In this document: piece after piece, positions 5,355-27,397 of the stretch
Numbering within the stretch: the first letter of the stretch is position 1
Layout: every line of letters begins with the position of its first letter
Source: a virus
Strand: one strand, 5' to 3'
Virus record (IMG/VR): IMGVR_UViG_3300042502_001517
Location: 1-42,865 of that record
Length of the DNA: 42,865 bases
Position numbers and translations under genes: made by a program
The notes under the pieces: model-generated
Database searches by the model: none
Told to the model about the DNA's origin: nothing
What the model saw: only the letters and a program-made list of their open reading frames with translations

Positions 5355-5714
5355 CTATATAGTTATAGGCTCACCGTTAAACTCAACGATGAGCCTGAAA
5401 TGAATCTTTCTAATATCTTCTGTTGGTAAATCGCCGACATACTGGCGTACATTCCGCGTATCGTTGTCGCGGTGGTTCGGTTGGCGGGTTTTGGGTGGAG
5501 TATTGCCCATCAATTCCCGCTCCAGTGCAGTGGGAGCGCGTTCGGTGATGCTTTTCGGCTTCACCTTGTCGCTATTGCCCCATACCAATTTACCGCGTTC
5601 GATAAAAAGCACTTTCCCTGTCCTGTCCTTCCGGTTACGGTCGAATGTCACGCATTTGAGGGAGAAATACTCCCCGTCGTGCATTTTTTTCAGTACTTCG
5701 TTTAAGGTAATCAT
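5355..5714 (-). CDS. Small head/portal operon protein, unknown
   Basis: 119 aa, MITLNEVLKKMHDGEYFSL. A charged, beta-rich N-terminal half is followed by a linker with many Pro/Arg/Asn residues and a C-terminal strand segment ending FNGEPITI. It is first in the portal operon and directly follows a GTCCTTTT-type promoter: ATG lies 4 nt after the TTTG. I recognise no family. Co-transcription with the portal suggests a virion or assembly role (inference). Confidence 0.7.
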   Translation of the reverse strand: MITLNEVLKKMHDGEYFSLKCVTFDRNRKDRTGKVLFIERGKLVWGNSDKVKPKSITERAPTALERELMGNTPPKTRQPNHRDNDTRNVRQYVGDLPTEDIRKIHFRLIVEFNGEPITI

Positions 5715-5718
5715 GCCA

Positions 5719-5753
5719 CAAAATTGCCGCCGTCCTTTATTCCTTAAAAGGAC
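5719..5753 (-). promoter_or_regulatory. Phage late-type promoter, portal operon
   Basis: On the minus strand GTCCTTTT (5753-5746), 23 nt, then TTTG (5722-5719) inside CAATTTTG; ATG of the 119-aa gene starts 4 nt later. The box is also half of an inverted repeat with GTCCTTTA on the other strand (5732-5739). One of nine sites sharing this spacing in the window. Confidence 0.7.
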
Positions 5754-5756
5754 GCA

Positions 5757-6686
5757 TTACGGCATGTTATCCGATTGTATAGATAACCAGGTCAGTGCGT
5801 TAGAATGGTGCTGATCGCTCACAGCGTCCAAGTGGGCCACACCACCCGCTAAGCCCATCAAAACACCAGCCCAACCATACTGAGCGTTGTCGTTTTCGTT
5901 CATTTTTGATCGACGCGCAAATACCGAAGGATAACGGTCAATAATTGCTTGCCGGCAAGATGCAAACCAAAACAAAATAACCCGTTTCACGTCCGGGTTG
6001 ATTCCTTGCATCAGTAAAGCCCTTTCTTCTGCTTTTGCTTCATATCCGCGCAGTTTCATGCGGCGGTCACCTTCGTAATTGGTATCGGTGTTCTCTTTTG
6101 TGCGTGGTTTCCTGGGGCGGTAAAGGATGGCCACTAATTCATTCACCGCCGCTTCGTGGCCAGTGGCCACGTAGTTTTCAAACAGGGTAAAGGCATAGCC
6201 CAATTCATAGATCGTAATGTTACTAAGCCCGTCATTAGGCCCATAAAACCAATGGACTTTTGAGCGATTGCCCTTTTGCTTTTGTTCCAACACGATTTCA
6301 GGATAAGGATTTTTCAACCGGTTAAATTTCACCGCATAAGTAGTGCGGCCTTCCTCATCTTCATCTATTTCAAACAATCCTTCAACCGCCAGATGCGCCA
6401 CCTCCTTAAATTCCGATAAAAACACCGAATCCCCTTCCACCTCATCTTCATTCACAATACAATCGGTACGCCATTGCTCTACCTCTGCGTTGTCGAGTCC
6501 GAGTATGTGTTTCGTGATGGAGGCTATTTTCATAACGCCTAGTTTGTGATCAAATCCCTCAGTAATTTTTGAAGGGAACATGGTTTTGTAGATTAACATT
6601 AGGTCACGTTTGCCTAAGTCGTCCCATGATTCGGGTAGTTGTACTACTCGTTCTGTGTCTTGGATTTTTATAGTGCAGTTCTTCAT
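5757..6686 (-). CDS. Conserved-looking phage protein, unknown
   Basis: 309 aa from the ATG at 6684-6686 (MKNCTIKIQD). An ATG at 6767 would add 27 residues but would run through a terminator hairpin and the promoter box, so the shorter form is preferred. It is acidic in the centre (DEDEEGRTT) and has a hydrophobic C-terminal stretch QYGWAGVLMGLAGG near residues 270-285. The gene ends 4 nt upstream of the portal-operon promoter box. I do not recognise the family; position in the structural region suggests an assembly or tail role. Confidence 0.75.
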   Translation of the reverse strand: MKNCTIKIQDTERVVQLPESWDDLGKRDLMLIYKTMFPSKITEGFDHKLGVMKIASITKHILGLDNAEVEQWRTDCIVNEDEVEGDSVFLSEFKEVAHLAVEGLFEIDEDEEGRTTYAVKFNRLKNPYPEIVLEQKQKGNRSKVHWFYGPNDGLSNITIYELGYAFTLFENYVATGHEAAVNELVAILYRPRKPRTKENTDTNYEGDRRMKLRGYEAKAEERALLMQGINPDVKRVILFWFASCRQAIIDRYPSVFARRSKMNENDNAQYGWAGVLMGLAGGVAHLDAVSDQHHSNALTWLSIQSDNMP

Positions 6687-6691
6687 ACACA

Positions 6692-6726
6692 CAAAAGAAC
6701 GGACACACGCACACACGAAAAAAGAC
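6692..6726 (-). promoter_or_regulatory. Degenerate phage late-type promoter
   Basis: GTCTTTTT (one change from GTCCTTTT) at 6726-6719, exactly 23 nt spacer, TTTG at 6695-6692, ATG 5 nt downstream at 6686. Same spacing as the perfect copies, so probably the promoter of the 309-aa gene. Confidence 0.5.
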
Positions 6727-6737
6727 ATAAATAAAAA

Positions 6738-6765
6738 GCCACGCACCCTCATTAGGATACGTGGC
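6738..6765 (-). terminator. Terminator after the 6.8-7.6 kb genes
   Basis: Inverted repeat GCCACG/CGTGGC with an inner CCT/AGG pair; on the minus strand it is followed by TTTTT, as a factor-independent terminator. It separates the small accessory genes from the next late promoter. Confidence 0.6.
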
Positions 6766-6820
6766 ATAATTTTACAATCCCTTGTACAAATTTCTGGGTA
6801 AATGTACTGGGTATTTTTTC

Positions 6821-7228
6821 TTATTTAAAGGACAGTCCTAATTTTAAATCACAATTTTTCCTAGAAACCCTAGCCATTTTCAGATGCATTTCTAACTCTT
6901 CTACCATTTGTGATAGTTCAAATCCTGTATTCATGCCCTCTAAACGATCAAATGCGTATTCACAATCAATGCCAACCAATCCAATATCTTTAATCAAATC
7001 AATTGCTTGAGCCAAAAACTTACGATAATCGCTATCGGCACTAACCGATTTCTCAAACATCCTTTCAAGTATTTGATCCATTTTATCGTAGTATTTAGCA
7101 TATTTGAATACGATATGGCTGTGGTACATAGATCCCTGTAGTGGCACTAATTGAGATGCAATAACTACACCAAAGCCCGAAGTGTCTTTAAATTTATACA
7201 TAAAACTATTAAGTTTTTTCTTGCTCAA
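6821..7228 (-). CDS. Unknown accessory protein
   Basis: 135 aa, MSKKKLNSFMYKF, Lys/Asp/Glu-rich and mainly helical (residues 45-130), no recognised motif. It overlaps the upstream 123-aa gene by 20 nt, so the two are probably translated together. Its codons are more A/T-rich than the neighbouring structural genes, which suits a recently acquired pair. Function unknown. Confidence 0.6.
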   Translation of the reverse strand: MSKKKLNSFMYKFKDTSGFGVVIASQLVPLQGSMYHSHIVFKYAKYYDKMDQILERMFEKSVSADSDYRKFLAQAIDLIKDIGLVGIDCEYAFDRLEGMNTGFELSQMVEELEMHLKMARVSRKNCDLKLGLSFK

Positions 7229-7580
7229 ACTTTAAATAAGTCGTAACCCCACTATCAGGGTCTTTTTTTAGCCGCTCTAAGGCTTTAATCAAAAAAACAC
7301 ATTCTAATGCGCTTTTGCACCGGCTTATGTCTTTGTACAAAATAGTGATAGACTCTGTGGTCAACTTTAAAGATCTAATTTCCAATAGTATCATTTTTAT
7401 ACGTATGGCTAATAGCCTACTAGGAGTCATATTAGTATCGCTTACCAGTGTTCTCCATGTTTTATCCAAACATTTTGAAACGAATACATATTCTTTTCTT
7501 GCCCAAAAACTCTTTTTAATCCCATACATAATCGTATAGATTTCCGGCATTAATTCATCTATCGTTTGTTCTTTTTCCAT
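7209..7580 (-). CDS. Unknown accessory protein
   Basis: 123 aa, MEKEQTIDELMPEIY, helical, with a basic centre and several Cys. ATG at 7578-7580 is preceded by A/T-rich sequence; no own promoter was seen, so it is probably read through from the 157-aa gene 31 nt upstream. It forms an overlapping pair with the 135-aa gene. No family recognised. Confidence 0.6.
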   Translation of the reverse strand: MEKEQTIDELMPEIYTIMYGIKKSFWARKEYVFVSKCLDKTWRTLVSDTNMTPSRLLAIRIKMILLEIRSLKLTTESITILYKDISRCKSALECVFLIKALERLKKDPDSGVTTYLKFEQEKT

Positions 7581-7611
7581 AAGTTTTGCTTTAAAAGATA
7601 AAATAAAAACC

Positions 7612-8085
7612 CTAAGCCGCCATTTTCTTAGGCATAATCTTCAACGCATCTTGCGTCGCCATATATAGCGCGATCCGTTCATCCGAGGTTAAATCCCCGT
7701 TCTCAATCAATGCGCATCTAAACTCATCAAAGGTACGGTACATCTCCGTTGCTTTTATCAATAAATCATTGTCTTCATTGTTGGCGGCGTACTGCTCCAG
7801 ATCTTCCATTTTGCGCAATTCCTTTTCAAGGTTTTGCAGCATTTGTTTATCTACTGCTTTTTGCCTGTTTATTTTACGATCGTCCAGTACCAGACAATCA
7901 ATAAAATAAATGCACCAACTAATTGAATCCCTTTCTTCATTTTGTAGTTCGCCGCTATTACTGTGTACAGCGTGCCGAATCACATTCAATAGTGATGAAA
8001 TGGTAGTTGATCTTTCATCACTATTTAAGATGAATGTTGCGGAGTCGAAGTCCGATAATGGGGTGGTTTGTGTTTGAGTAGCCAT
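7612..8085 (-). CDS. Unknown protein with self-complementary leader
   Basis: 157 aa, MATQTQTTPLSDFDS, acidic and helical (coiled-coil-like around residues 75-105, QMLQNLEKELRKMEDLEQ). It is first in a three-gene minus-strand unit under a host-like promoter at 8264-8311. The first six codons are perfectly complementary to a leader segment (see 8068-8178). Transcribed divergently from the plus-strand tail gene. Function unknown; regulation suggests expression outside the late programme. Confidence 0.65.
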   Translation of the reverse strand: MATQTQTTPLSDFDSATFILNSDERSTTISSLLNVIRHAVHSNSGELQNEERDSISWCIYFIDCLVLDDRKINRQKAVDKQMLQNLEKELRKMEDLEQYAANNEDNDLLIKATEMYRTFDEFRCALIENGDLTSDERIALYMATQDALKIMPKKMAA

Positions 8086-8178
8086 ACTCGTTAAAAAGTT
8101 TAAAAAGTTAGAAAATAATAAAAACCCGCAGGGGGGCTACTCAAACACAATCGACCAGATCGGAAAGAACCCTGCGGG
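8068..8178 (-). promoter_or_regulatory. Candidate RNA switch: anti-start leader and hairpin
   Basis: In the minus-strand leader, CCCGCAGGG (8178-8170) pairs with CCCTGCGGG (8133-8125), followed by TTTTTATTATTTT like a terminator. Its loop holds TTGTGTTTGAGTAGCC (8150-8135), a perfect 16-nt complement of the coding start from the G of ATG through codon 6 (8083-8068). The two pairings could compete. Function is inference. Confidence 0.5.
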
Positions 8179-8263
8179 GAGTACATCCGTACCGTGTACA
8201 GATGCCTTATCTTGAAAATGAAATTTAATTGGATCATAAGGCCAATGTGTTTAAGTAGCACCG

Positions 8264-8311
8264 CAAAGGTATGGCAATATCAGTACATTGCACAAATAAA
8301 TCTTGTGCAAT
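8264..8311 (-). promoter_or_regulatory. Host-like promoter with operator-like inverted repeat
   Basis: On the minus strand TACCTTTG (8271-8264) as -7 box and TTTG (8296-8293) as -33 box, spacer 21. Overlapping the -33 box is a 9-bp perfect inverted repeat ATTGCACAA-7 nt-TTGTGCAAT (8287-8311). The arm CTTGTGCAA recurs at two other promoters, so this is a likely repressor site. Confidence 0.6.
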
Positions 8312-8343
8312 GTTTCAAAAAGTCATAAATCTTACAAAAATAA

Positions 8344-8379
8344 GTCCTTTTGCCGCCACATAACAATCATATACCTTTG
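8344..8379 (+). promoter_or_regulatory. Phage late-type promoter, plus-strand tail gene
   Basis: GTCCTTTT (8344-8351), 24-nt spacer, then TACCTTTG ending at 8379; ATG at 8385 is 5 nt further. The only plus-strand member of the class, divergent from the 8264-8311 promoter. Confidence 0.65.
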
Positions 8380-8384
8380 CAAGC

Positions 8385-10271
8385 ATGATACAAGTAACGC
8401 AAAAAGGCGTAACAACGCCCTTCGATCTCAGTCCCGATCAAGCCATCCAAGTCACCCACGTCAATCCAGCGCTGGATGCTGATCGCCAAGCCCGCATCTT
8501 TACTTTACCCTTCACACTGCCGCGTACACCACGCAACCAGCGGATCAGGAAACATACCAACCGATTGGATGCAACAAAGAAATCGCAGTCCAGGGCAGAT
8601 ATAAAAATAGGTACTTCCCTCGTAAGTGAAGGGACGCTTAAACAGATCAATAGCAACACTGAGGTGGTGGAAGTGCAGTTCATTGGTGATACCATCGACC
8701 TGTGGGCGGCTATGGAAAAGATAAAGATCAATACCATCTTAGAAACGATCGAAATAGACACGGGCAGCATACCCGCCGCCGTGTGGACATTTTCGATGAA
8801 TACGCCATCTACGGGGCTTACCTATTCTATACAAATCGGAATAGGTACCGTAACCTACACCGCCGTCAGTAGCGACCCACTGGAAATACAAATCGCGGCC
8901 AATTCCCTAAAAACGGGACTCAACGCCCTTGTGCCTGGTATTGCGACGGTGGTGAGTGGCGATCTGGTACTGGATGCGGCTTTGGTCAACGAATACAACA
9001 TCATCACCTTCAACAACATCACCGAAGAATCGGTGGTAACACTAGGCGATCAAGCGCAGACGGCAATGGCCGCACACATCGAAGCCTCGCACATTACGCC
9101 CTACGATACACACTGTTTCCCTATGCTCGTATGGAACAACCTGTACGGGAGTTTGCTGGCCGGTAGCACAGTGTGGGAGTACAATTACCGGATCAACATC
9201 TGTACCGATGGTGTTTTCCTCAAAAACGAAAAGTATATCAATCTGCCCGAAAAGCCACTTATTTGGCGCAACACGGTTATCCCTTTTGTCCGCCTGCCCT
9301 ATATCCTGGAGCGCATTCGCATTCAATTGGGCTACGATGCATGGCGCGGCGAAACATGGGACATAGAGGATTTCCAAAAGATCATCATCTGCAATAACTT
9401 TTGCCTCGATGCGCTGTACGACGATCGTTACAGCAATTCGTTCGAGCGCGTGAATGGATTTGCCCGCGAGATCAATTTTAACAACCATGTCCCCGACATC
9501 ACAGCTGCCGCGCTACTCAAAAGGGTATGTACATCGCTCAATCTATCCGTTTCCGTAGAAGATAACAGTCTCGTACTCACTCCCAATCGCGCACAACTCG
9601 TAAAGCCGCCGATGAACTGGCGCGGACGAATGTCGGAGCGGTACAACCGCAAATACAAAGACGGTACGGGCTGGAAAATGGTATTCGATAGCAATAACGA
9701 CGAAAAACCTACACAGGCGGGACAATTGGCCAATCTCGTATCGGGCGATGGCGAAGTGGAAACCCCAATCATTCCAACTACCTGGTACCATACCGATATT
9801 GTGCTAGTCCCCAAGGATCTACCACTAGGACAGGCCAAATTGTCGCAATTCTTCCAGTTAGGCCAATCACCTGCTTTCAATCCCGAACACAAGGCCAACA
9901 CCATGCCGCTCATCTGGCTTTTTGATCGAGGTATACGCGAAAGCAGTGCCGGTGTTGAATACGCCATGGCCACGCACGATAACAAAGACTACGACAACAA
10001 TGTAATAGGCGCATGGTCGCTGGATATACTGGGCGACGTAGGATTATACCAACTTCACCACAAAGGTCACATCGAACTATCTGATTCGGATACGGCGGTA
10101 TTCGACATCGTAATGTCATCCGGTGAATTGGGTATATTATCCAAGTTTCAAAACGCGCGCGCGGTGGTCTATCACCCGGACGGCGAGTTCATTGCAGTAC
10201 TGAAGGTGCTATCTGCATCACACACAGCAAAGGGCATGAGTATAGTATCGGTAGAGGCTTTGATACAATAA
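8385..10271 (+). CDS. Tail/baseplate protein
   Basis: 628 aa, MIQVTQKGVTTPFDLS. It is a large, beta-rich protein with an N-terminal segment HVNPALDADRQARIFTLPF, a pattern seen in distal-tail or baseplate proteins of Bacteroidota prophages (recalled, not searched). A middle section (residues 130-240) has Thr/Ser/Ile-rich strands. It is the only structural gene on the plus strand and has its own late-type promoter and near-leaderless start. In a linear siphovirus map it would be expected directly after the tape measure, so here it has been moved and inverted. Confidence 0.65.
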   Translation: MIQVTQKGVTTPFDLSPDQAIQVTHVNPALDADRQARIFTLPFTLPRTPRNQRIRKHTNRLDATKKSQSRADIKIGTSLVSEGTLKQINSNTEVVEVQFIGDTIDLWAAMEKIKINTILETIEIDTGSIPAAVWTFSMNTPSTGLTYSIQIGIGTVTYTAVSSDPLEIQIAANSLKTGLNALVPGIATVVSGDLVLDAALVNEYNIITFNNITEESVVTLGDQAQTAMAAHIEASHITPYDTHCFPMLVWNNLYGSLLAGSTVWEYNYRINICTDGVFLKNEKYINLPEKPLIWRNTVIPFVRLPYILERIRIQLGYDAWRGETWDIEDFQKIIICNNFCLDALYDDRYSNSFERVNGFAREINFNNHVPDITAAALLKRVCTSLNLSVSVEDNSLVLTPNRAQLVKPPMNWRGRMSERYNRKYKDGTGWKMVFDSNNDEKPTQAGQLANLVSGDGEVETPIIPTTWYHTDIVLVPKDLPLGQAKLSQFFQLGQSPAFNPEHKANTMPLIWLFDRGIRESSAGVEYAMATHDNKDYDNNVIGAWSLDILGDVGLYQLHHKGHIELSDSDTAVFDIVMSSGELGILSKFQNARAVVYHPDGEFIAVLKVLSASHTAKGMSIVSVEALIQ

Positions 10272-10274
10272 AAT

Positions 10275-10305: not shown

Positions 10306-10351
10306 TGAGTATGTATAATCGTATCTAGTATGTGCGTGCGTGTGTGTGTGC

Positions 10352-16641: not shown

Positions 16642-18315
16642 TTACGGTAGTGTCCAAGGTTGGTTAAGAGTATCGAGCCAATATGAAAGGTCTGCATCTT
16701 GCCATGCGTCGCTACCCGGATCAGATACTTGTCTTTTAGAGAAATTACCCATACTCAACCGAGGCTGAGTAGTGAACTGGTAACTATGCAGGTCACGGAG
16801 CGAACTGGTTACGTCAAGGCCGTTTGAGGTAATCCGTAGTGGCACATAGCCGTTCTCGGATATATCGTACAGCGATACAGCGAGGAACATTTCTTGCAAT
16901 ACCTCCGCATCGGCGCGGCGAACATAGCCTGTACGGTAAGTAAGTGCCGGATTGAAATCCGTAAAGTATTGCACCGTATCGGCGGCGTACTGGTCGTAGC
17001 CCGGTTGAATGGCTCGCTGCGCCGTAGAGCGCGATATTTCCAAACTTTTTGAGTATTCGCCCGTACATCGCCAGCATTCGGGGCAACCGAACGAGTTTAA
17101 ATACATAATTTGCCGCTCAGTACGACTAAAATCCCGATTAATATAGTATTCTCGCTCTTGCGATAGGTACTCCGGTTCTCCACTATCATACGCGCTATCT
17201 GCATCCACCACCCGCACAGTGTAGCGGTATTTGGTAGCATCAGTAATCCCCAACGCAGATGGCCATGCTGGAATTAAGGCAGTCTCATACGCATCGTATG
17301 AAATGGTGCTGCTTTCAAATAGGAAATCGGCGGCATCGGCTAAACCAGTTACCACCGAATACGCGATCACTTCCAGCACCACCCGCTTTGCAGATCCTGT
17401 ATAATTGTGCCAGGGTAAATACACCCTTTCTTCTTCACCGATCAAACGGCCATCTACTTGCCACGAAAGCAAAGCGTTTGATACGTCGAGGGTAAGCAAG
17501 TAATTCGCCTCTGCCCATATCGAATTCGCTACGCCGCCCAATACCGCTATTTTTACATTGTCGTAAGTCCAGTCCTGGTAAGTGACCGGTGTACCACTTT
17601 GCTCTCTGAAACGCACATAGTAACGGAGCGTATTATTCGCCCGTACTGGTTCTGCATTCGCATAGAGGGGTATGGCAGGTTCTTGTACCATATCGCGGCC
17701 TAGTGCGTCCAGCACCTGCGATATATCGAAGAACATAAGCCCGTTTTCGTCGGGTAGCCCTTCGTGTTCGCTGACCAGTTCATAAGCCCCTGTTTTATAG
17801 CCGTACTCCGCAAATACTTGCAGCGTTACCCGGTAATTGTCGGGCGTAGTATCGGTAGTAGCCGCCGTGGCTGTTACGGTATAAGATGCACTATTGGTAA
17901 CGACCAAAGCCCAACCAGCAGCAGCGGTGCGTTCTTGTATCGTTATTTTTGTAGTGAGTATTACAGAAGTGAAAAACGGAGCGATGCGCGGGTGTGTACC
18001 GATAATGTTGGCCACCGCCGCCCAGTACGTTGTGTTATTGTAGCCCGATACTGCGCCTGAAGGTAAATCGGCTACACCCGTAGGCGTATTGGTAGCCGTA
18101 AAAATAACCGTCTCCATCGTGCCATCTGGTTCGGTGTAGGCGATGGTGATGGTGGCCGCTGCTGACAATCGGTTACTGGCTGCGGTAAAATTGACTTCGC
18201 TTTTTACACCCGTAGCGCGGAATAGTTGACCGCTACCATTCACGCTTTTTAGTTTGTATAGCGCCGTATTGCGGGTAAGCGTTACGGCATCTGGGCTAGT
18301 GATTAGATTTACCAT
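16642..18315 (-). CDS. Baseplate or central tail protein
   Basis: 557 aa, MVNLITSPDAVTLTRNTAL. Mostly beta-sandwich-like (fibronectin-like N-terminal part to about residue 160), then a region with many aromatic residues. Near residue 400 lies SFGCPECWRCTGEYSK, a CxxCxxC cluster that may bind a metal. Similar large proteins precede fibre genes in Bacteroidota prophages (recalled). It overlaps the upstream gene by 1 nt and is followed 4 nt later by the next ORF. Role as baseplate/hub is inferred from size and context. Confidence 0.6.
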   Translation of the reverse strand: MVNLITSPDAVTLTRNTALYKLKSVNGSGQLFRATGVKSEVNFTAASNRLSAAATITIAYTEPDGTMETVIFTATNTPTGVADLPSGAVSGYNNTTYWAAVANIIGTHPRIAPFFTSVILTTKITIQERTAAAGWALVVTNSASYTVTATAATTDTTPDNYRVTLQVFAEYGYKTGAYELVSEHEGLPDENGLMFFDISQVLDALGRDMVQEPAIPLYANAEPVRANNTLRYYVRFREQSGTPVTYQDWTYDNVKIAVLGGVANSIWAEANYLLTLDVSNALLSWQVDGRLIGEEERVYLPWHNYTGSAKRVVLEVIAYSVVTGLADAADFLFESSTISYDAYETALIPAWPSALGITDATKYRYTVRVVDADSAYDSGEPEYLSQEREYYINRDFSRTERQIMYLNSFGCPECWRCTGEYSKSLEISRSTAQRAIQPGYDQYAADTVQYFTDFNPALTYRTGYVRRADAEVLQEMFLAVSLYDISENGYVPLRITSNGLDVTSSLRDLHSYQFTTQPRLSMGNFSKRQVSDPGSDAWQDADLSYWLDTLNQPWTLP

Positions 18316-18860
18316 TATGCGGGTGTAAGCCCTCCATCAGCCCAAGTAATTGTTTGGCATTCGATTGCCATTTTGCGCGGTGTGCGCAAATCCATTGTAG
18401 CAAATACGCCCGCATACGAGCCATCGCCACCGTGAAAATAATAATCGCCCTGTATATTCAAATCGTTAAGCGAGTCGGCGTATCCTTCCCATAGCGGGTG
18501 ACCATTTTGGGAATCGGAAATGATTTTGGAAATAATCTGATCAAATACCTCCTCGGAACTGGAAGCGGCTACAATTGCTGCGCGGCCTTCATCTTCGCGG
18601 CGGCTATACCATTTCCCAACTAACAACCCGATTTGGTATTGCTTTACGGCTCTGCTCGCACTGCCATTCATCCCGAAGGTAGGCACTACCAGCCGCACAA
18701 AATACCCCTTTTCGGTTGCCCCTGTGCGGAAATCCGCAAAGGCTTCTTCGAGTGGGCGTACTTCAAATACCCTTTGCCCGCTTACATCTGCATGTAGTAG
18801 CAAAGGATGCTGCTCGCACTGGTATTGAAAGTAATTGACTATATCGTTCAGATATTTCAT
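18315..18860 (-). CDS. Tail terminator-like or tail-completion protein
   Basis: 181 aa from ATG at 18858-18860 (MKYLNDIVNYFQYQ). An ATG-less 44-codon N-terminal extension exists but would cover the promoter, so it is rejected. It is an alpha/beta protein with HPLLLHADVSG, LLVGKWYSRRED and a final FATMDLRTPRKM strand. Size and operon-first position fit tail completion proteins. ATG lies 4 nt after the TTTG of a late-type promoter, so the mRNA is probably leaderless. Confidence 0.6.
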   Translation of the reverse strand: MKYLNDIVNYFQYQCEQHPLLLHADVSGQRVFEVRPLEEAFADFRTGATEKGYFVRLVVPTFGMNGSASRAVKQYQIGLLVGKWYSRREDEGRAAIVAASSSEEVFDQIISKIISDSQNGHPLWEGYADSLNDLNIQGDYYFHGGDGSYAGVFATMDLRTPRKMAIECQTITWADGGLTPA

Positions 18861-18864
18861 GCCA

Positions 18865-18899
18865 CAAAATTGGATGGAATGCCTACCTAGAAAAAGGAC
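18865..18899 (-). promoter_or_regulatory. Phage late-type promoter, tail/fibre operon
   Basis: GTCCTTTT (18899-18892), 23-nt spacer, TTTG (18868-18865) within CAATTTTG, ATG 4 nt downstream. The 13 bases from the ATG outward are the same as at the portal operon promoter. Confidence 0.7.
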
Positions 18900-18909: not shown

Positions 18910-20508
18910 TTACTTTGCCTCCGGTAGCGTATTGCCCGTAGCGTTGTACAAGAAACTACTGTACAGGCCGTACACTGGATTATCCTCAGCATCGCTCAAA
19001 TCGGTGGCCAATTCTCGGCGCAGGTTGTCGCTCCGTTCTTGCCCTTTGTCCTTCTTTATTTCGTTGTTGTTGCCCCGCTTTGCCTTGGCGCGGGACATAC
19101 TGAGGTAGGTATATTTGGCATTGGCGCGATTGATTCTGAATTTAGGGATGCGCGGATTCGTTTCGCCCAATATCAATTCCCATACGCGGTATTTTTCGTA
19201 GTGGCGCGGATTGGTACCGTGTACGGTCATGCGCCGCACTGTCCAGCCTTTCATGGCTAGGTACTGCTCCATTTGCTCGGCCTTGCTTAGTTTCGTGTGG
19301 CCTGTGGAGTGTGTACCCGTTGCATCATGCCAAAACAGCACGATTTTATTGTCGTGGTGCTGGTAATACTCGCAAAAATCCTCTGCCAGATCGTCTTGTG
19401 TTTTGCCCTCCGCACCTTTTACAAAAAAGTCCTTAATCGTTCGGAACTCACCGGGCAACTGTATCGAAACGGTAAGCGAATTGATGGCCGCACCAAAGTC
19501 CATACCTAGAATAAGGTTTTGCCCTGGCAACAAGTCTGCGTCGCCCCTGCAATCGGGCTTTACACCTATTGCGTCTGGGGTGTATAGGTTGCCCGTGTAA
19601 TCGAAGTTGGTGTAGGTGTGCTTATCTTCGTCCAGTAGCGCGTAGAAACCATCGCGGACTTTGCGCACCCGGATATTGAGGTATTCGGCATTGAACACTT
19701 CTAAGTCGGCACTTTCGGCTTTTGCTACGCTTAGGTAATCGGGTTTTAGGATGCCCAACTTTATATTTTCGATACAATTGGCACGCATAAACAAGTGCCG
19801 TTTCGGTTGCGACCTTGCCAATTCTTCCCGATCAATAAACCATTCGCCCGCGAGGGTGAGCGGTGTACTGGTTGCCTTTAAACGGAAGTCAAACCAACGC
19901 TTTTTGCCAAATTCCCGCATGTTGGAGCCGCGAATGGAGGCGTTACTATCGGCTTCCATTTTTGTACGGTTGAGCATGGCCACCTCATCAGCAAATTCGC
20001 CATCGGTGCTTAATCCGCGACCACTACCGGGTATGTCCTGCGATAGTAGATTCATCGTGAAACCGTTGTAAAATGTAACGGTATTGTCGTACTTAACCGG
20101 ACTTTTGTAGGCTTCTGGCCAGTTCCATTTTGCGGGTGGACGGCGACCTATGAAGTAGTGCAGGTCTTTGTAATAGCCCTGCATTTCTAGCGCGTGTATG
20201 TAGGAAGGAATGATTTCGGTTAGGAATTTTTGGTAATTGGGTACGACCCATTGCCATGAGCCACGGGGTAAGTCTTGCATCACCATACGGGTAAATTTGG
20301 CGAATACCGTCGTTTTACCTGTACCACGTCCCCACTCCAAATCGAGTTCTTTGATAGGCAATGCCTTGGTGGCCAAAATGGAAAGCATTTGGGACGAATT
20401 GTACCGTATTTCTCGGTAATGGTCATCCACTTGGCGCATAAGAGACTGAAAATCGCCGCTATCTTGTATCCGTTCTATTTCCTGTTTTATCAGTTCGTTG
20501 TGCGTCAT
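18910..20508 (-). CDS. terL: Terminase large subunit
   Basis: 532 aa. Walker A is GRGTGKTT at residues 60-67; a Walker-B-like segment DGEFADEVAML (169-178) has D174-E175; the nuclease half shows GMDFG (D337) and WHDATG (D395), the acidic residues of the RNase H-like fold. It translocates DNA into proheads and cuts the concatemer. Start overlaps the small-subunit stop by ATGA. Full length for the family. The gene is not followed by the portal, as usual, but by the tail operon promoter. Confidence 0.92.
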   Translation of the reverse strand: MTHNELIKQEIERIQDSGDFQSLMRQVDDHYREIRYNSSQMLSILATKALPIKELDLEWGRGTGKTTVFAKFTRMVMQDLPRGSWQWVVPNYQKFLTEIIPSYIHALEMQGYYKDLHYFIGRRPPAKWNWPEAYKSPVKYDNTVTFYNGFTMNLLSQDIPGSGRGLSTDGEFADEVAMLNRTKMEADSNASIRGSNMREFGKKRWFDFRLKATSTPLTLAGEWFIDREELARSQPKRHLFMRANCIENIKLGILKPDYLSVAKAESADLEVFNAEYLNIRVRKVRDGFYALLDEDKHTYTNFDYTGNLYTPDAIGVKPDCRGDADLLPGQNLILGMDFGAAINSLTVSIQLPGEFRTIKDFFVKGAEGKTQDDLAEDFCEYYQHHDNKIVLFWHDATGTHSTGHTKLSKAEQMEQYLAMKGWTVRRMTVHGTNPRHYEKYRVWELILGETNPRIPKFRINRANAKYTYLSMSRAKAKRGNNNEIKKDKGQERSDNLRRELATDLSDAEDNPVYGLYSSFLYNATGNTLPEAK

Positions 20509-21158
20509 TGTGCCACCTCCTCGTAGTCTGCAGTGTGGGTGGGCATGGCTTGCATTACACCCTCGAATATTTTGGAGGTATCAATATTGCCGCCCGCATT
20601 GGTAACGATGGCCATCAACATATCGCGGAGTTGTGGATCGAGGGCTTCCACATAGGTGCGATCGGCCATTTTCTTTTCTATGTCGTAGGTTTCTTCGTCG
20701 GGTTTGTCTAGCCCTGTAATCACTGCGTATTGCTGCGCGGCTTTGAGCATTAGTTTATCGTTGCCCACATTTGAGGCATTACGATACACGCGCATAATCA
20801 TTTCGATAGCGCGTTCGCGGTGTTGGGCTTTGTCAATTTTATCGGAAGGGCTGAAAATGTTTTTAATATCGGCCACATCCTTCCGGGCGGCTTGGATAGA
20901 TATATCAAATTCATCGCGGAGGGTTTCAGTAATATCGGTATAAGTGCGGCCTTCTAGGAAGAGTGCTTTTGCACGTTCCCACCGGGCTTGCATTTGTTGT
21001 TCGCGCTCGTTCAACTCAAACGGGTCTTCCATCGTGTACCACGCAATGAGGCGTTGTTTCATGGAGTTAAGCCCATCGCGTTTCATCTGATCGCGTTGGC
21101 GCAAAGCCTTTATTTCTAAGAGTGATAAATCGGTAGTAACGTTAATCTTTTTTGGCAT
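20505..21158 (-). CDS. terS: Probable terminase small subunit
   Basis: 217 aa, MPKKINVTTDLSLLE. A central segment ERAKALFLEGRTYTDITETL followed by ISIQAARKDVADIK reads as a helix-turn-helix, as in small terminases that recognise packaging sites. The rest is helical and would oligomerise. It directly precedes and is coupled (ATGA) to the large subunit, which supports the call. The N-terminus overlaps the upstream 152-aa gene by 17 nt. Confidence 0.7.
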   Translation of the reverse strand: MPKKINVTTDLSLLEIKALRQRDQMKRDGLNSMKQRLIAWYTMEDPFELNEREQQMQARWERAKALFLEGRTYTDITETLRDEFDISIQAARKDVADIKNIFSPSDKIDKAQHRERAIEMIMRVYRNASNVGNDKLMLKAAQQYAVITGLDKPDEETYDIEKKMADRTYVEALDPQLRDMLMAIVTNAGGNIDTSKIFEGVMQAMPTHTADYEEVAQ

Positions 21159-21600
21159 TGTTGCGGTATATTGTGTTTAGTTCGGAACTGATCCCCATTA
21201 TCAAAGTGGCGTATTTGGCTAACTTTTCTTGGTTAGGCTCTGCGGATAATGCGTTTTCTACCATCAGCGCGTGTGTAGCGGCACGCTCTTTCATAAGGCG
21301 TACTGCGTGTAAATAAAGCGGATGGTTGGGGGTTATGTTTGTTTTGCCTTCGGTTGTTGGCTCTTTTACTTTCTGTTTTTTCTCTTTTACAGCAACAGGT
21401 GGCGGCGTGTTATCGGGTGCAGGATACTTCGCCAGGGCATTGGTTATTTTGCCTTTTTCGTAGTCGGTTAAGCGGCCACTACGAAGGCAATCCTTTACCC
21501 TTTTTTCTATGTTGGGCAAAAGCGCATTAGGCGGTAAAAGGGCGAATGCTGCCGCCCAGTCTTGCTCTAAGTGTATTTCGAAATATTGCTGTAAATTCAC
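21142..21600 (-). CDS. Terminase-operon protein, unknown
   Basis: 152 aa with a GTG start at 21598-21600; the choice is supported because the GTG sits exactly 4 nt after the TTTG of a late-type promoter, like ATG at four other sites. A Pro/Lys-rich linker (PAPDNTPPPVAVKEKKQK) near residues 60-80 joins two helical parts. It may be a packaging co-factor. No family recognised. Confidence 0.65.
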   Translation of the reverse strand: MNLQQYFEIHLEQDWAAAFALLPPNALLPNIEKRVKDCLRSGRLTDYEKGKITNALAKYPAPDNTPPPVAVKEKKQKVKEPTTEGKTNITPNHPLYLHAVRLMKERAATHALMVENALSAEPNQEKLAKYATLIMGISSELNTIYRNNAKKD

Positions 21601-21604: not shown

Positions 21605-21639
21605 CAAAGGTGCGGGGCGTAGAAACCGCTTAAAAGGAC
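21605..21639 (-). promoter_or_regulatory. Phage late-type promoter, terminase operon
   Basis: GTCCTTTT (21639-21632), 23 nt, TTTG (21608-21605) within CACCTTTG; a GTG start follows after 4 nt. Confidence 0.7.
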
Positions 21640-22608: not shown

Positions 22609-22642
22609 GTTGTGTGTCTTGCTTTTAAAAATTGATAGAATA

Positions 22643-22670
22643 GTACGAGGTAGTAAAAACCACCCCGTAC
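22643..22670 (-). other. Hairpin downstream of the major capsid gene
   Basis: 12-bp stem (with two G-U pairs on the minus strand) and 4-nt loop, arms GTACGAGGTAGT and ACCACCCCGTAC. No T tract follows, so it may stabilise or process the abundant capsid mRNA rather than end it. Confidence 0.5.
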
Positions 22671-22694
22671 CTAAGTAATAATGATGAACAGCAA

Positions 22695-23672
22695 CTACAC
22701 TTGGTTATTCACGTAAATATCCTGCGGTGCCTCGAAGCCATATCCACGGTAGATCGTGCAATACATGTGCAGGATACGTGGACTGTTATCGAAGATGATT
22801 TCGGGATAGAGCGCGTAGCCTTGGCGACCGATAAATGACATGTTGTCGGCCTGTGTGTTAGGCACAAAAATCCAACGATTGCTACTGCCCATCGCTTGCA
22901 CACCTACGATCTCTACATTGTAGTCATCCACAAATACTTTTTGTGGGCCGTTGTTTTGAGCAAATGGCCCATTCATGCTTTGCGTGAACTCGGCACGGTA
23001 ATCACGGAAATATCGGCGGCGGTTAGGCACGCTCATCAATATTTTACCGCCCAAATTAGTCACCTCCGAAGGGATTGCATCTAAGAACGCTTCCACCTTT
23101 TCGCGAATATCCGCGTCGGTAAATACGCCCGTAGCAACTACGTTGATCGAGGTAGCGGTTACTGCATCGGCAATAACTTTTTTAAAGCCATCCACAGATG
23201 CGAGTACTGCGCCCGGTGTGCCAGCGGTAGGTGCAACATAAGAGCCATCCCAAGCGATAGCGTTCAATTCCGAATGCAGTTTGGGAAGTAGAACGCGGTC
23301 GTAGATGTATTTAGGGAACGTCCAACTCTGGGGGTCGCGGCCTGCTTCAAAGCGCGAGCCTTGGTATGCATCCCACCACTTTTTAAGGTCGGTCTCCGTC
23401 CAGTCCATATCCATCTTGATCGGACGGACACGGATAGAGGTTTCGCCATGCGATACACTACCCGTTGGGGTGTATCCGCCTTGGTATGGTTGAAGCATTT
23501 GGCCAGAAACAGCGCGTTCTACGACGTAAAACTCGCCATCTGACATTTTGGGAACCAATAGGTTATTTTCCATTTCCAAGCCCTGCAAAATTTGCGTGCG
23601 GATTTCCGGTCCAAAAGTGCGGCTTTGGTCATTTAAGAAGGCCGCGCCTGCGGCTATCGTGATATTAGGCAT
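22695..23672 (-). CDS. Major capsid protein (HK97-like)
   Basis: 325 aa, MPNITIAAGAAFLNDQ. An alpha/beta protein containing an internal FTDADIREKVEAFLDAIP helix, then LGGKILMSVPNRRRYFRDY, and a C-terminal beta domain with NRWIFVPNTQADNMSFIG and GYGFEAPQDIYV, the layout of HK97-fold capsid proteins. It follows the protease/scaffold gene by 67 bp, the canonical order. It forms the icosahedral shell. Confidence 0.8.
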   Translation of the reverse strand: MPNITIAAGAAFLNDQSRTFGPEIRTQILQGLEMENNLLVPKMSDGEFYVVERAVSGQMLQPYQGGYTPTGSVSHGETSIRVRPIKMDMDWTETDLKKWWDAYQGSRFEAGRDPQSWTFPKYIYDRVLLPKLHSELNAIAWDGSYVAPTAGTPGAVLASVDGFKKVIADAVTATSINVVATGVFTDADIREKVEAFLDAIPSEVTNLGGKILMSVPNRRRYFRDYRAEFTQSMNGPFAQNNGPQKVFVDDYNVEIVGVQAMGSSNRWIFVPNTQADNMSFIGRQGYALYPEIIFDNSPRILHMYCTIYRGYGFEAPQDIYVNNQV

Positions 23673-23739
23673 GTTATTTAATAAATTGTACCCTTATCGG
23701 GTAATTACGGTGTAAACTGATATTTATGAGCCGATACAG

Positions 23740-24915
23740 CTACGAAGGGACAAAACGAACTTGCTCCCCTTTCGCAAGAGAGGCTTCAATGTCCTGATTG
23801 AAGCGAGCAAGACGCGCCTGTGGGGTATCTTCATCGCCTTCGATCCGTAGGTCGTTCGCTGGTGGTGGTGGCGTGCTGCGCCCTGCGCCGGGTGCTGCGG
23901 CAAACGTAGCAATCTGCGCCTGTGCATTAGCCAACTCTCCTTTTAGGGCATTGAGTTCTGCTTTAAAATCGGCGATAAGTGCGGCGTTCGGATCGGCTGC
24001 TGGTGCTGGTGGTGGCGGTGTGGCGGCAGTGTGCTCAGCAAGGAGTGCCTGCACATCGGTGGCCAACAAAGTGCCGTCCGTGAGTGCTGCCTTTAATTCT
24101 GCTTTTGTCATGTCTGTGACGTTAGGTTGAGTGATAGATTTGGCAGAAGACGCTGCCGGACTTAAAAAATTAGTGATGCGCTGTATAAGCCCCTGCGCGG
24201 GGGGTGCTGGTGTATTGCCAGTATCGGGTGCGGCTTTTTTAGGGCGGTACTCGGAGAATGGGTCGCGGATAGCGGCGGCAATAGTATCTTTTGTAACGGC
24301 TGCAATGCCGCTTTGATATTCTTCTGTGGTGCCTGTGATAAGACCCTGCGATAAGACATCGGGGTAGGTAAAGTACTTGTCTTTGTAGTCGGCGAAGTAC
24401 ATAGTAGTAACATCTTCCGGTGTTTTTTGTAGGCTATCAGCAAAGCCTAAGATCATGGCTTCGCTGATCTTGTCTAGGATTTCGGCACATTCGCGCATTT
24501 CCTGTGCGTTGCCTTCGCAATAGTCCCACGGGTGGTGAATCATAAGGATGGCGTTTTTGGCCATGTGCCGCTGTTGGCCACACGCCCATATTGCGGCTGC
24601 CATAGATGCCGCCGTGCCATCGTTGTAGGTGTGAATGGTCATACCGCTCATTTGCATGGATGCAATAATGGCCTGACCATGCTTTGTAGAGCCGCCATTC
24701 GAGTTCAAGCGGATATGGACATCAGTTGCGCCTTCTGCTTTTAGGTCGTTTATTGCCTGAATGAAATCGCTATCAGAAATACCAACTTTTTCGTACTCGT
24801 GTGTGGTGTAGTTATACGACATCATGGAACCGATTGGAGCGTATAAAAACAAGGTATTTTCATTGCGCACTAAGCGGTCGTAACTCACTTTTGCCTCTGT
24901 ATTAATATCTGCCAT
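23740..24915 (-). CDS. ClpP-like prohead protease fused to scaffold
   Basis: 391 aa. The N-terminal 200 residues are a ClpP-type serine protease: NSNGGS at 71-76, the nucleophile region GTAASMAA (Ser104) and MIHHP (His127 or 128). After a Pro-rich linker (PDTGNTPAPPAQG), a C-terminal part contains Pro/Ala stretches and a coiled coil (ALIADFKAELNALKGELANA, about 290-320), resembling a scaffold that is removed on maturation. Protease-scaffold fusions occur in several phages. It is second in the capsid operon. Confidence 0.85.
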   Translation of the reverse strand: MADINTEAKVSYDRLVRNENTLFLYAPIGSMMSYNYTTHEYEKVGISDSDFIQAINDLKAEGATDVHIRLNSNGGSTKHGQAIIASMQMSGMTIHTYNDGTAASMAAAIWACGQQRHMAKNAILMIHHPWDYCEGNAQEMRECAEILDKISEAMILGFADSLQKTPEDVTTMYFADYKDKYFTYPDVLSQGLITGTTEEYQSGIAAVTKDTIAAAIRDPFSEYRPKKAAPDTGNTPAPPAQGLIQRITNFLSPAASSAKSITQPNVTDMTKAELKAALTDGTLLATDVQALLAEHTAATPPPPAPAADPNAALIADFKAELNALKGELANAQAQIATFAAAPGAGRSTPPPPANDLRIEGDEDTPQARLARFNQDIEASLAKGEQVRFVPS

Positions 24916-24920
24916 TGTGT

Positions 24921-25409
24921 TTAAAAAATGGGTATATAACCCGGTGATTTTTTTATAACTACTCCTGAAAATGCGACTTGGTGCGCACGCGTATCGGACG
25001 GCGCAGCACCTGAATCATAATCGGGATTGAATGTAAGTGGATGCTCGGGTGTGCCGAGTAGGATGGTTAAACCATTTCGGGTGACACGGACGATAAATGC
25101 GTGCCGTACCATATCGTCGAGTGTGCCGCGCTGTACGGCGGATTCGCTGAGGAGTGTGGCTGATACGGTAATTTGGAAATTAGGTCCTTGCTGTGTGTTT
25201 TGTGTGCTTTCGCGTACGCGCCCGGTTTCGGGCTGGTATGGGAGTTTGTACCAAGTGCCTACGCCCGCATCGCGCTGCTGATTGTAGGCAGCCGATAAAG
25301 CACGGTGGTATTGCCCTGGCGTGAGTTCGTCCACGGGGCAATACTCTAATAAACCCACTCCGGCGAGGGCTTTACTGGTACAATTGATAGAGGCACTGAG
25401 CGACTGCAT
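24921..25409 (-). CDS. First gene of capsid operon, structural candidate
   Basis: 162 aa, MQSLSASINCTSKALAG. Beta-rich with an aromatic/hydrophobic end (VVIKKSPGYIPIF) and a run RNGLTILLGTPEHPLTF. Comparable proteins precede prohead proteases in Bacteroidota prophages (recalled). It may be a minor tail or tail-tube-like protein. ATG is 4 nt after the TTTG of the late-type promoter. Confidence 0.55.
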   Translation of the reverse strand: MQSLSASINCTSKALAGVGLLEYCPVDELTPGQYHRALSAAYNQQRDAGVGTWYKLPYQPETGRVRESTQNTQQGPNFQITVSATLLSESAVQRGTLDDMVRHAFIVRVTRNGLTILLGTPEHPLTFNPDYDSGAAPSDTRAHQVAFSGVVIKKSPGYIPIF

Positions 25410-25413
25410 AGCA

Positions 25414-25448
25414 CAAAAGTGCAGCCGCCTGAAAGGTAGAAAAAGGAC
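25414..25448 (-). promoter_or_regulatory. Phage late-type promoter, capsid operon
   Basis: GTCCTTTT (25448-25441), 23 nt, TTTG (25417-25414) within CACTTTTG, then 4 nt to ATG. Confidence 0.7.
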
Positions 25449-25451
25449 AGG

Positions 25452-26000
25452 TTACACCTTTGATTTGCGCCGTCCTTTAAACACGTTGTAATTGGAAACG
25501 CCGCGCGCGGTGCGGTAGCGTTGGTTGCGCTTTTTGATGGCGTCGAAATCGGCGACTTCGGAGAGTCCCGCTTCGCGCATAAAATCTTCGATAACCGCTT
25601 TCTCGGACATACCTACTGCGTGGGCGACGGTGGTGCGGGCGCATATTTCCTGCATCATAAGCGCGGGTAGGTAATCGTTAAATAAGCGCGCTACCCTATC
25701 GAGGTAAAGAAAAATATCTACGGTAGCCAAATGGCCTGTGATAATGAAGGGCATAGAGTCGCCGTAGTTTTCTACTACTTCGCAATAATCGGGGAATGAT
25801 ACTCCCTCGGAGACTGGATGCTGCTGGAGGTCGATACTGAAGGTGAGCAAGGAGGTAAGGAATACCGAAATAGGCGATTTGCCGGGCAACAGAATAGGAG
25901 CGTCGGGACTAAGCCGCTCGTACCATTCTACAAATTTTCGGTGTTTTGTGGAGATTGGGAACTTCCCAATAATTTGTTTTGAAATCGTTTCAACTTTCAT
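25452..26000 (-). CDS. Unknown protein between holin and capsid operon
   Basis: 182 aa from ATG at 25998-26000 (MKVETISKQIIGK). A start at 26090 would lie in the terminator hairpin. Helical; the C-terminus is strongly basic (KKRNQRYRTARG ... KGRRKSKV), so nucleic-acid binding is possible. It may be read from the holin promoter past the terminator or from an unseen promoter. Because it is a late gene with a basic tail it is one candidate late regulator, but no HTH is certain. Confidence 0.6.
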   Translation of the reverse strand: MKVETISKQIIGKFPISTKHRKFVEWYERLSPDAPILLPGKSPISVFLTSLLTFSIDLQQHPVSEGVSFPDYCEVVENYGDSMPFIITGHLATVDIFLYLDRVARLFNDYLPALMMQEICARTTVAHAVGMSEKAVIEDFMREAGLSEVADFDAIKKRNQRYRTARGVSNYNVFKGRRKSKV

Positions 26001-26066
26001 ACACAACGCGACGTGGATAGTGATACATACTGCTATCGTTACAAAAATCGAGCCGACTTTTAAAAC

Positions 26067-26105
26067 AATAAGCCCGTGAAAGTAAAACACTTACACGGGC
26101 TTATT
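26067..26105. terminator. Terminator downstream of the holin-like gene
   Basis: 12-bp perfect stem AATAAGCCCGTG/CACGGGCTTATT with an inner AAGT/ACTT pairing, T-rich on both sides. It lies 20 nt after the holin-like stop. Confidence 0.75.
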
Positions 26106-26125
26106 CAAAATAATTTAATGATTTG

Positions 26126-26674
26126 CTACTGGACGACATTTGCGTCCTTCTGCCCTCGCTTAATTAATCGCTCCACAATTGGCCACACAATGTTTTTAAT
26201 ACTGGCGTAAAGGAAATTGGTGGCTCCGAAATTGGGTAGAAATGTGGCGGATAACAACGTGAAAAATTCTTCTGTTAATGCTCCGGCTTTGAACGTTGCT
26301 AGTCCTGTAAGTGCGACAAATATCACGACACCCGATCTGACCCATTTGTTTCCTACGGTTCGCAGTCCGGGTATAAAGCCGCCGAGCAATGCAAGGATAG
26401 CAACTACTCCCGCCTCTAATGCACCGATCAAGCCCTGATCGAAAAAGGTTTTTGGTTCGTTGTAATTGACGGGAATTGGATCGAGCGTAGTGGCTGCATT
26501 TACCGCCGAAACGGTGCTGGCTACGTCAACCATTCCGGGGATAACCTTCGTGGCTCCGTCGCGGGTTTTTACGGTTTCGGTGGGTGCTGGTGTAGTTGGT
26601 GTGGTGGTGTCTTGTGCCTGTGCAAAGAGCGGGACTAAGAACACCAAAAACACGGCAAAAATAAAATTCTTCAT
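26126..26674 (-). CDS. Holin-like membrane protein with signal sequence
   Basis: 182 aa. MKNFIFAVFLVFLVPLFAQAQ is a Sec-type signal, followed by a Thr/Pro-rich stretch and two membrane segments (about residues 85-110 and 114-134), then a basic C-terminal tail ERLIKRGQKDANV. Directly next to the endolysin gene, so a holin or pinholin function is likely. It has its own late-type promoter with a 35-nt leader. Confidence 0.65.
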   Translation of the reverse strand: MKNFIFAVFLVFLVPLFAQAQDTTTPTTPAPTETVKTRDGATKVIPGMVDVASTVSAVNAATTLDPIPVNYNEPKTFFDQGLIGALEAGVVAILALLGGFIPGLRTVGNKWVRSGVVIFVALTGLATFKAGALTEEFFTLLSATFLPNFGATNFLYASIKNIVWPIVERLIKRGQKDANVVQ

Positions 26675-26709
26675 GCTTTAAAATGTTTTGTTTAAAAAAT
26701 ATATTGATA

Positions 26710-26744
26710 CAAAAATATGGATCGGGAGGGCTGGCAAAAAGGAC
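26710..26744 (-). promoter_or_regulatory. Phage late-type promoter, holin-like gene
   Basis: GTCCTTTT (26744-26737), 23 nt, TTTG (26713-26710) within TATTTTTG. The box touches the last base of the endolysin gene. Unlike other sites it leaves a 35-nt leader before ATG. Confidence 0.65.
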
Positions 26745-27358
26745 TACTTAGCCAAATGACTGGCCAGTGCTGCGTAATGCTGCTTGAATGCGGGCGACAC
26801 GTCCGTTTTATCGGCGCGTACATTGTGGTGTGCGTATATCCCAAACTGGTACGGAATATTCATATCTAGTACTCCGAATGGCGCAATGGTAGTAGGGATT
26901 TGGTGCTTTTTGGTGAGCATAAGAAGCAGGTCTTTTAATGCGTCGATCTGCGCGGCTGGATAGATTGGCCATGCTTTTCCGCTGCGCCACTCCTCTATTA
27001 TCGTTTCTCCTTTGTAGATAGGCCCGTCCGGGTGCAACCATTTTAGTTCACCGCTTTGGGTTGGCCATGTGTAGCCTTCGTTTACCATTTCTATGCCAAT
27101 ACTCTGCTGGTTGAGCATTAGGTTACGCGCTGATCGGATGCCCAGGTGATGCGCCCAAAACTTGTCGTCAAATGCTTGAATTACGGTACCATCTTTTTCG
27201 ATTAGGAATGCGGTAGCGATTCGCTCCGGGGTATGCGCCCACCAGCGGAGCGCAGAAGCCGCGCTGCTACTGACGGTGTGGTGCAGTACGATGTTGCTTT
27301 TTTTGTGGATGCGAGCAAAGTACTGGTTGGGTGTGAGTGGGCGTTGCTGGATAATCAT
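26744..27358 (-). CDS. N-acetylmuramoyl-L-alanine amidase endolysin
   Basis: 204 aa from ATG at 27356-27358 (MIIQQRPLTPNQYF). Amidase_2-type pattern: NIVLHHTVS (zinc His26 or 27), GIEMVNEGY (Glu90, catalytic), AHHNVRADKTDVSPAF (His177/178 and Asp186). It cleaves the amide between muramic acid and L-Ala to lyse the host wall. Short, single-domain, no signal peptide, so it depends on the neighbouring holin. Promoter directly upstream with 4 nt to ATG. Confidence 0.9.
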   Translation of the reverse strand: MIIQQRPLTPNQYFARIHKKSNIVLHHTVSSSAASALRWWAHTPERIATAFLIEKDGTVIQAFDDKFWAHHLGIRSARNLMLNQQSIGIEMVNEGYTWPTQSGELKWLHPDGPIYKGETIIEEWRSGKAWPIYPAAQIDALKDLLLMLTKKHQIPTTIAPFGVLDMNIPYQFGIYAHHNVRADKTDVSPAFKQHYAALASHLAK

Positions 27359-27362
27359 ACCA

Positions 27363-27397
27363 CAAAAATGAGGCACGAAAAACACGGGACAAAGGAC
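27363..27397 (-). promoter_or_regulatory. Phage late-type promoter, endolysin
   Basis: GTCCTTTG (27397-27390; last T changed to G), 23 nt, TTTG (27366-27363) in CATTTTTG, 4 nt to ATG. A terminator at 27404-27431 insulates it from upstream transcription. Confidence 0.65.

Follow-up and report, generated by a model that had tools for sequence, protein, structure and literature searches.

A putative phage-specific promoter class positioned at the start codons of late genes in a virus of the Bacteroidota

Messenger RNAs (mRNAs) of the Bacteroidota have no Shine-Dalgarno sequence and are nearly all leadered in the published maps, so that the use of leaderless mRNAs by the ribosomes of this phylum is an open question. 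The DNA analyzed here (the window) is the whole of an IMG/VR virus record of 42,865 bases, IMGVR_UViG_3300042502_001517. Five of its late genes are preceded by an element, GTCCTTT-N20-CAnnTTTG, which is compared below with the known promoters of the phylum. In Flavobacterium johnsoniae, the -7 box TAHHTTTG spans positions -12 to -5, and the transcription start site (+1) lies 4 or 5 nucleotides (nt) beyond it (PMC6847099). About 3.7% of the 5′ untranslated regions of Bacteroides thetaiotaomicron are shorter than 10 nt (PMC7366714), 5.5% of the mRNAs of Flavobacterium psychrophilum are leaderless (PMC9723704), and an older survey found a leaderless signal in 1 of 37 Bacteroidetes/Chlorobi genomes (PMC3160421). 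Leaderless mRNAs as such are known; in this phylum, a late regulon of leaderless genes under a promoter class of its own appears to be undescribed, and no prior report of the element, of late promoters or of leaderless transcripts in Bacteroidota phages was found in the part of the open-access literature that was searched.

The element at late starts of the window

Five late starts, all on the − strand (5714, 18860, 21600, 25409 and 27358), were found exactly 4 nt after GTCCTTT-N20-CAnnTTTG. An earlier note on this DNA had claimed the 4-nt distance between TTTG and the start codon, and a base-by-base check returned it without deviation (TTTG-N4-ATG at 5714, 18860, 25409 and 27358; TTTG-N4-GTG at 21600). 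The -7 box ending in TTTG that was proposed there also stands; what had been overlooked is the GTCCTTT box, and also that C takes the place of T at -12. All five sites carry CAnnTTTG, the phylum consensus being TAnnTTTG, and neither TAnnTTTG at -7 nor TTTG at -33, the marks of a sigma-ABfr promoter, is present at any of them.

The pattern GTCCTTT-N20-YAnnTTTG occurs six times in the window against 0.000 expected (200 Markov shuffles, in which it was never seen). TTTG-N4-RTG by itself was seen 32 times, with 18.8 expected and a shuffle maximum of 32; it is near chance, and the spacing finding is therefore weak without the GTCCTTT box. A chance origin of the late sites was rejected through the GTCCTTT-N20 pairing and not through the TTTG-N4-RTG count.

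The 4-nt gap equals the published TTTG-to-+1 spacing, which would place +1 on the A of the ATG. Judged by promoter position, leaderless late mRNAs at the 4-nt sites are supported; the earlier note had predicted them, and the prediction is backed by the F. johnsoniae spacing (PMC6847099) together with a box-dependent excess of start codons at 4 nt, described in the next section.

The genes behind the element include the head operon, the genes upstream of the portal-like and terminase genes, and the endolysin gene, and hence the element serves late structural genes. The element at 5719..5753 (−; GTCCTTT-N20-CAATTTTG) precedes a gene of cluster c11 (5355..5714, −), located just upstream of the portal-like gene and predicted to be leaderless, with orthologues in phages G010 (51% identity, 5 nt) and G012 (34% identity, 4 nt). 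The same box, CAATTTTG, ends the element at 18865..18899 (−), and the predicted leaderless late gene behind it (18315..18860, −) has a G010 orthologue (46% identity) that starts at the aligned residue, at 5 nt, and a G012 orthologue that starts with GTG 4 nt after CATTTTTA. At 21605..21639 (−), GTCCTTT-N20-CACCTTTG abuts a terminator hairpin and precedes a late gene upstream of the terminase genes (21142..21600, −), predicted to be leaderless with GTG and the positional counterpart of cluster c8. The first gene of the head operon (c3; 24921..25409, −; predicted leaderless) follows GTCCTTT-N20-CACTTTTG (25414..25448, −) and has orthologues in G010 (GTG, 4 nt) and G012 (5 nt). The fifth element (27363..27397, −; GTCCTTT-N20-CATTTTTG), which also abuts a terminator hairpin, precedes the predicted leaderless gene of an N-acetylmuramoyl-L-alanine amidase, the endolysin (26744..27358, −; Amidase_2, E = 9.8e-18).

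Across three of these late genes, the window and the two diverged phages, whose terminases share 59% and 47% identity with that of the window, have spacings of 4/5/4, 4/5/4 and 4/4/5 nt. Comparing the TTTG-to-start distance in orthologous phages was the check proposed in the earlier note, and its argument from the GTG start that the spacing is under selection agrees with the outcome: the orthologues keep 4-5 nt, the intervening bases vary, and some GTG starts align with ATG starts.

The two exceptions named in that note, the holin-like gene (35 nt) and the primase (28 nt), were confirmed. Elements of TA and GA type, with unchanged internal geometry, precede these leadered genes: GTCCTTT-N20-TATTTTTG at 26710..26744 (−), 35 nt before ATG 26674, and GTCCTTT-N20-GACATTTG at 34094..34128 (−), 28 nt before ATG 34065. 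The two sites listed with 5 nt, 6686 and 8385, have that distance, and their assignment to the same class holds less well. At 6686 the element is degenerate (GTCTTTT-N20-TTCTTTTG; 6692..6726, −). The start of the gene behind it (c5; 5757..6686, −) is backed by homologues, since, relative to a longer open reading frame at this locus, the G012 homologue begins and the G010 alignment begins at residue 28 (BLAST). Sequence inspection gave a second candidate element upstream of ATG 6767 (GTCCTTT-N20-TACATTTA; 6799..6833, −). The site before ATG 8385 (8344..8379) is not clearly the same element as the five late sites because it lies on the + strand, has a host-like -7 box (TACCTTTG) and has N21 in place of N20.

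Distance from element to start codon in other phages

IMG/VR was scanned with GTCCTTTT-N19-CAnTTTTG and with the corresponding CAnCTTTG pattern, allowing an ATG 0 to 25 nt downstream. A pattern with a fixed TGGYATG is blind to spacing and was replaced by the N{0,25} patterns and by a count anchored on GTCCTTT. Sites were de-replicated by N20 and by N-terminal similarity. Among the matches listed, the ATG was at exactly 4 nt in 43 of the 110 distinct CAnTTTTG sites and in 20/90 CAnCTTTG sites, with few in any other bin. For CA sites with the box overall, the first start codon was at 4 nt in 69/168, at 3 nt in 8 and at 5 nt in 7; a broad second mode followed, with the start codon about 14-23 nt after TTTG, corresponding to predicted leaders of about 10-20 nt.

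The excess at 4 nt depended on the box. In the same DNA, box-less CAnnTTTG had a start codon at 4 nt in 3/177 cases and box-less TAnnTTTG in 6/178, against 63/145 with the box (p = 1.7e-22). When the -7 box was ignored and the count was anchored on GTCCTTT (whole-phage set), an ATG was found 55 times at 32 nt, was almost absent at 20-31 nt and did not occur at 38-41 nt; control 7-mers gave less than 1 per bin. Removal of similar N-termini left the spike in place (60/219). Start codons are nearly never located upstream of the predicted +1, which gives the distribution a sharp left edge, and this edge, together with the gap before the leadered mode, is the pattern predicted by a start site at the ATG. 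The four bases between TTTG and the start codon are weakly conserved, the conserved feature being the spacing. At 4 nt, CA sites use ATG 69 times and GTG or TTG 5 times. Starts at 3-5 nt were found for 84 of the 168 CA sites and for 21/113 TA sites (p = 9e-8); this association of CA with leaderlessness may be confounded by lineage, because the two kinds of site were drawn in part from separate groups of phages.

Gene classes were counted in 25 phage records. Ten of the 11 c8 sites (upstream of the terminase genes) are at 4 nt; at the remaining one, an in-frame GTG lies at this distance. Spacings of 3-6 nt were found at 10/13 element sites of c11 (upstream of the portal-like gene), 7/10 sites of c5 are leaderless by position, the homologues carrying exact elements at 4 nt, and so are 4/4 sites of c3. 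Protease/capsid genes are leadered at 12/14 sites, and c13, a family described below, at 4/4. Predicted leader type is gene-specific and conserved, the portal-upstream and terminase-upstream genes being predicted as leaderless and protease/capsid as leadered. Terminator-like hairpins were found just upstream of 24/74 leaderless elements against 20/4000 random positions; in the window they are clear at 27397 and 21639.

Three named phages, Leef_1, Ingeline_1 and Mea-Yong924-1, have GTCCTTT elements with mostly diverged -7 boxes, and annotated starts at 4 nt (Leef_1 2515 and 34630; Ingeline_1 188 and 22952; Mea-Yong924-1 13128). The element at Leef_1 2515 ends in CATCTTGC, resembling the TAnnTTGY class of F. 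psychrophilum. In Flavobacterium phage 6H, GTCCTTT-N20-NAnnTTTG was not found, though a distant c13 homologue is present; another repeated box, ATGTCTTAAA, precedes several genes of this phage (L426), and it is possible that regulator and box have co-diverged in it.

Phage specificity, source phage and the candidate regulator c13

Among 120 genomes of the Rufibacter family, 14 contain the full leaderless element, with 29 occurrences in total, whereas the reversed control gave 2. Thirteen of these 14 genomes carry c13, which is present in 32 of the 120 (p = 4.6e-8), and most element hits share a contig with c13, at a distance of tens of kilobases at most. Elsewhere in the Rufibacter genomes, no excess of the element over the reversed pattern was observed. 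Use of the element by the host was rejected, since Rufibacter host genomes showed no enrichment over the reversed control, and the element seems, from its distribution, to be restricted to phage and prophage DNA. The lack of excess outside prophages and a -7 box that departs from the host consensus make it probable that a phage-encoded factor directs the host polymerase to the element.

Two observations concern individual Rufibacter genomes. Around position 370 kb on contig C16 of Rufibacter latericius (L053/L457), a prophage-like region has three elements and a c13 gene interrupted by a TGA stop; it is probably a decaying prophage. In three Rufibacter species (L033, L035, L036), GTCCTTT-N20-TAnnTTTG-TGGC-ATG precedes an orthologous 224-aa gene (MEEHFYTEY...) that sits outside the recognized prophage clusters, and this could be a domesticated phage promoter.

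The candidate late regulator of the window, of family c13 (25452..26000, −), is encoded by the gene that follows the holin-like gene and directly precedes the head operon. It matches a hidden Markov model built from 12 BLAST-clustered c13 proteins (E = 5.1e-5); members of this small, undescribed family have about 150-220 residues. c13 was found in 26/26 element phages with adequate coverage and, structural-looking clusters aside, is the only near-universal family among the element phages examined. Elements before c13 itself are of TA type in seven cases and GA type in one (CA 0/239), and are leadered where close. AlphaFold2 models of c13 are confident (predicted local distance difference test scores of 83.5 for the window protein and 91.1). 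Comparison with the PDB gave no clear fold match, the best hits being weak, and among models of viral proteins the whole fold was matched by the homologous protein of Leef_1 only. Co-occurrence and position suggest that c13 is the late activator, a proposal that we hold tentatively, at somewhat less than an even chance.

The window phage looks temperate and tailed, with integrase, primase, terminase, head protease and amidase genes. Its terminase large subunit (18910..20508, −; phrog_2, E = 4.8e-10; Polaribacter phage Leef_1, 32%) was the query for finding relatives, and because the named relatives found in this way mostly infect Polaribacter, Flavobacterium, Cellulophaga and Porphyromonas, the host very probably belongs to the Bacteroidota. 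A protein search for close relatives returned near-identical contigs only and no genome matches, and relatives carrying the element were found through the DNA pattern scans. The 628-aa gene at 8385-10271 is on the + strand in the window, its G010 and G012 homologues sharing the strand of their neighbors; a tail-related module around it is possibly inverted. ARAGORN reported a tRNA-like gene with an unusual four-base anticodon (ataa) at 27468-27547 (−), in the stretch separating the endolysin promoter from the early region; this gene may be a real tRNA, a decayed tRNA or an attachment-site remnant. A repeat of 55 nt that contains a GC-rich hairpin (GGGCGGCCAACACCGCCC) is present in five copies at 28828-30135 (−), preceding consecutive small early genes, and a short A-rich stretch sits before the ATGs of the genes behind it; the repeat is possibly a processing, translational or protein-binding element.

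Mechanism, rival explanations and known systems

The best overall explanation, to which we assign a probability of roughly 0.82, is that GTCCTTT-N20-CAnnTTTG forms a late promoter specific to phages, which would give leaderless late mRNAs. GTCCTTT (about -39 to -33) would substitute for the -33 box, CAnnTTTG would act as a variant -7 box (-12 to -5) without the consensus T at -12, and RNA polymerase would initiate 4 nt past TTTG, at the first base of the start codon, so that translation of the late mRNAs would do without a 5′ leader. Set 10-20 nt further upstream, this promoter would yield a leadered mRNA. A phage factor, with c13 as the best candidate, would retarget the host polymerase to the element; the promoter of c13 itself, where it has the element, is TA- or GA-type and leadered, and a host sigma factor might read it earlier. 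The element, its spacing, its phage specificity and its gene-specific conservation are supported by sequence statistics; the precise place of +1, translation without a leader and the part played by c13 are what we infer.

Several points weigh against this explanation. The 4-5 nt spacing from TTTG to +1 comes from TAnnTTTG and not CAnnTTTG promoters, only half of the CA sites are leaderless by position, and the scans demanded the element, so that the rigidity of N20 is partly built in. As for c13, it has no significant Pfam, PHROG or NCBIfam match and is hence no known regulator by sequence; its residues 111-168 match several helix-turn-helix domains weakly (Z below 5), which a second model did not clearly reproduce, and co-occurrence with the element is expected anyway inside one prophage lineage.

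Ordinary host sigma-A promoters could lie near start codons owing to the compactness of phage genomes. Their consensus shares TTTG with the -7 box, and in the published maps very short leaders are found on about 4-13% of the host mRNAs of this phylum; yet host-type TAnnTTTG in the same DNA shows no spike at 4 nt (6/178), C stands at -12 in the five window sites and in most box sites (the first scans required CA), the GTCCTTT element is not enriched over the reversed control in Rufibacter host genomes, and leadered versions occur in the same genomes, clearly set apart from the leaderless class, which leaves this account quite improbable. Still less credit is due to the idea that the element is an operator or translational signal beside start codons and no promoter. 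The fixed distance to the start in many genes would suit it, but before other genes the element is 10-30 nt further upstream with unchanged internal geometry, it sits just downstream of terminator-like hairpins, its geometry fits the promoters of the phylum, and the 4 nt preceding the ATG are not conserved in sequence.

A real promoter whose +1 falls inside the 4-nt gap, so that the mRNA keeps a leader of 1-4 nt, is also unlikely, if marginally less so than host sigma-A promoters: spacings of 3 and 5 nt do occur (8 and 7 of 168) and +1 may wobble, but the spike is confined to the 4-nt bin and the published spacing is 4-5 nt. Even if true, it would mean a near-leaderless mRNA and would barely alter the conclusion. 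The choice of trans-acting factor is much more balanced. There is close to an even chance that a protein other than c13 is responsible, either another phage protein (of LuxR type or a different early protein) or an alternative sigma factor of the host. The annotations of Leef_1, 6H and Ingeline_1 include LuxR-type genes, and the TAnnTTGY promoters of F. psychrophilum have been ascribed to alternative factors (PMC9723704); against this, c13 alone is near-universal in the examined element phages when structural-looking clusters are set aside.

Taken further, the proposal of phage-specific late promoters would describe a clade of Bacteroidota phages with a private late promoter class, read by a c13-retargeted host RNA polymerase, in which the conserved presence or absence of a leader, gene by gene, sets late output (high for the leadered capsid; lower or later for the leaderless packaging and connector genes). 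We regard this wider scheme as speculative and rate it below the activator role of c13 taken singly; the tuning of protein amounts by leader type is an inference. In the hosts this layout is rare, and its occurrence across a large group of Bacteroidota viruses suggests that their late genes are activated and translated in a manner of their own. The element supplies many well-defined leaderless test genes in cultured phages and metagenomes, and c13 is a named candidate phage transcription factor for the unusual polymerase of the phylum. In poorly annotated phages, the element could serve as a signature of late genes, correct start codons and operon boundaries, and it is a possible orthogonal promoter for Bacteroidota genetic tools.

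Late or middle phage promoters that depend on an activator or sigma factor are known from T4 (MotA/gp55), Mu (C) and SPO1 (its sigma factors). The present system is like them in its altered -35 region, its phage specificity, the late genes that it would drive and a candidate regulator before the late operon; it differs in that no sequence relative of those regulators was found, in the Bacteroidota-type polymerase and in the predicted leaderless mRNAs. With the sigma-ABfr promoter (TTTG at -33, TAnnTTTG at -7), it shares the -7 TTTG, the distance to +1 and boxes about 20 nt apart, whereas GTCCTTT replaces the -33 box, N20 is rigid, C stands for T at -12 and the occurrence is in phages and prophages only. 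The SM5 promoters of F. psychrophilum (TAnnTTGY; PMC9723704) resemble the Leef_1 element ending in CATCTTGC, but SM5 belongs to the host, and no GTCCTTT box has been described for it. Known leaderless mRNAs (lambda; Actinobacteria, Deinococcus-Thermus) likewise have the start site at the start codon and strongly favor ATG, with some GTG; here, in contrast, a conserved set of phage late genes is placed behind one promoter class, in a phylum where leaderless mRNAs are rare.

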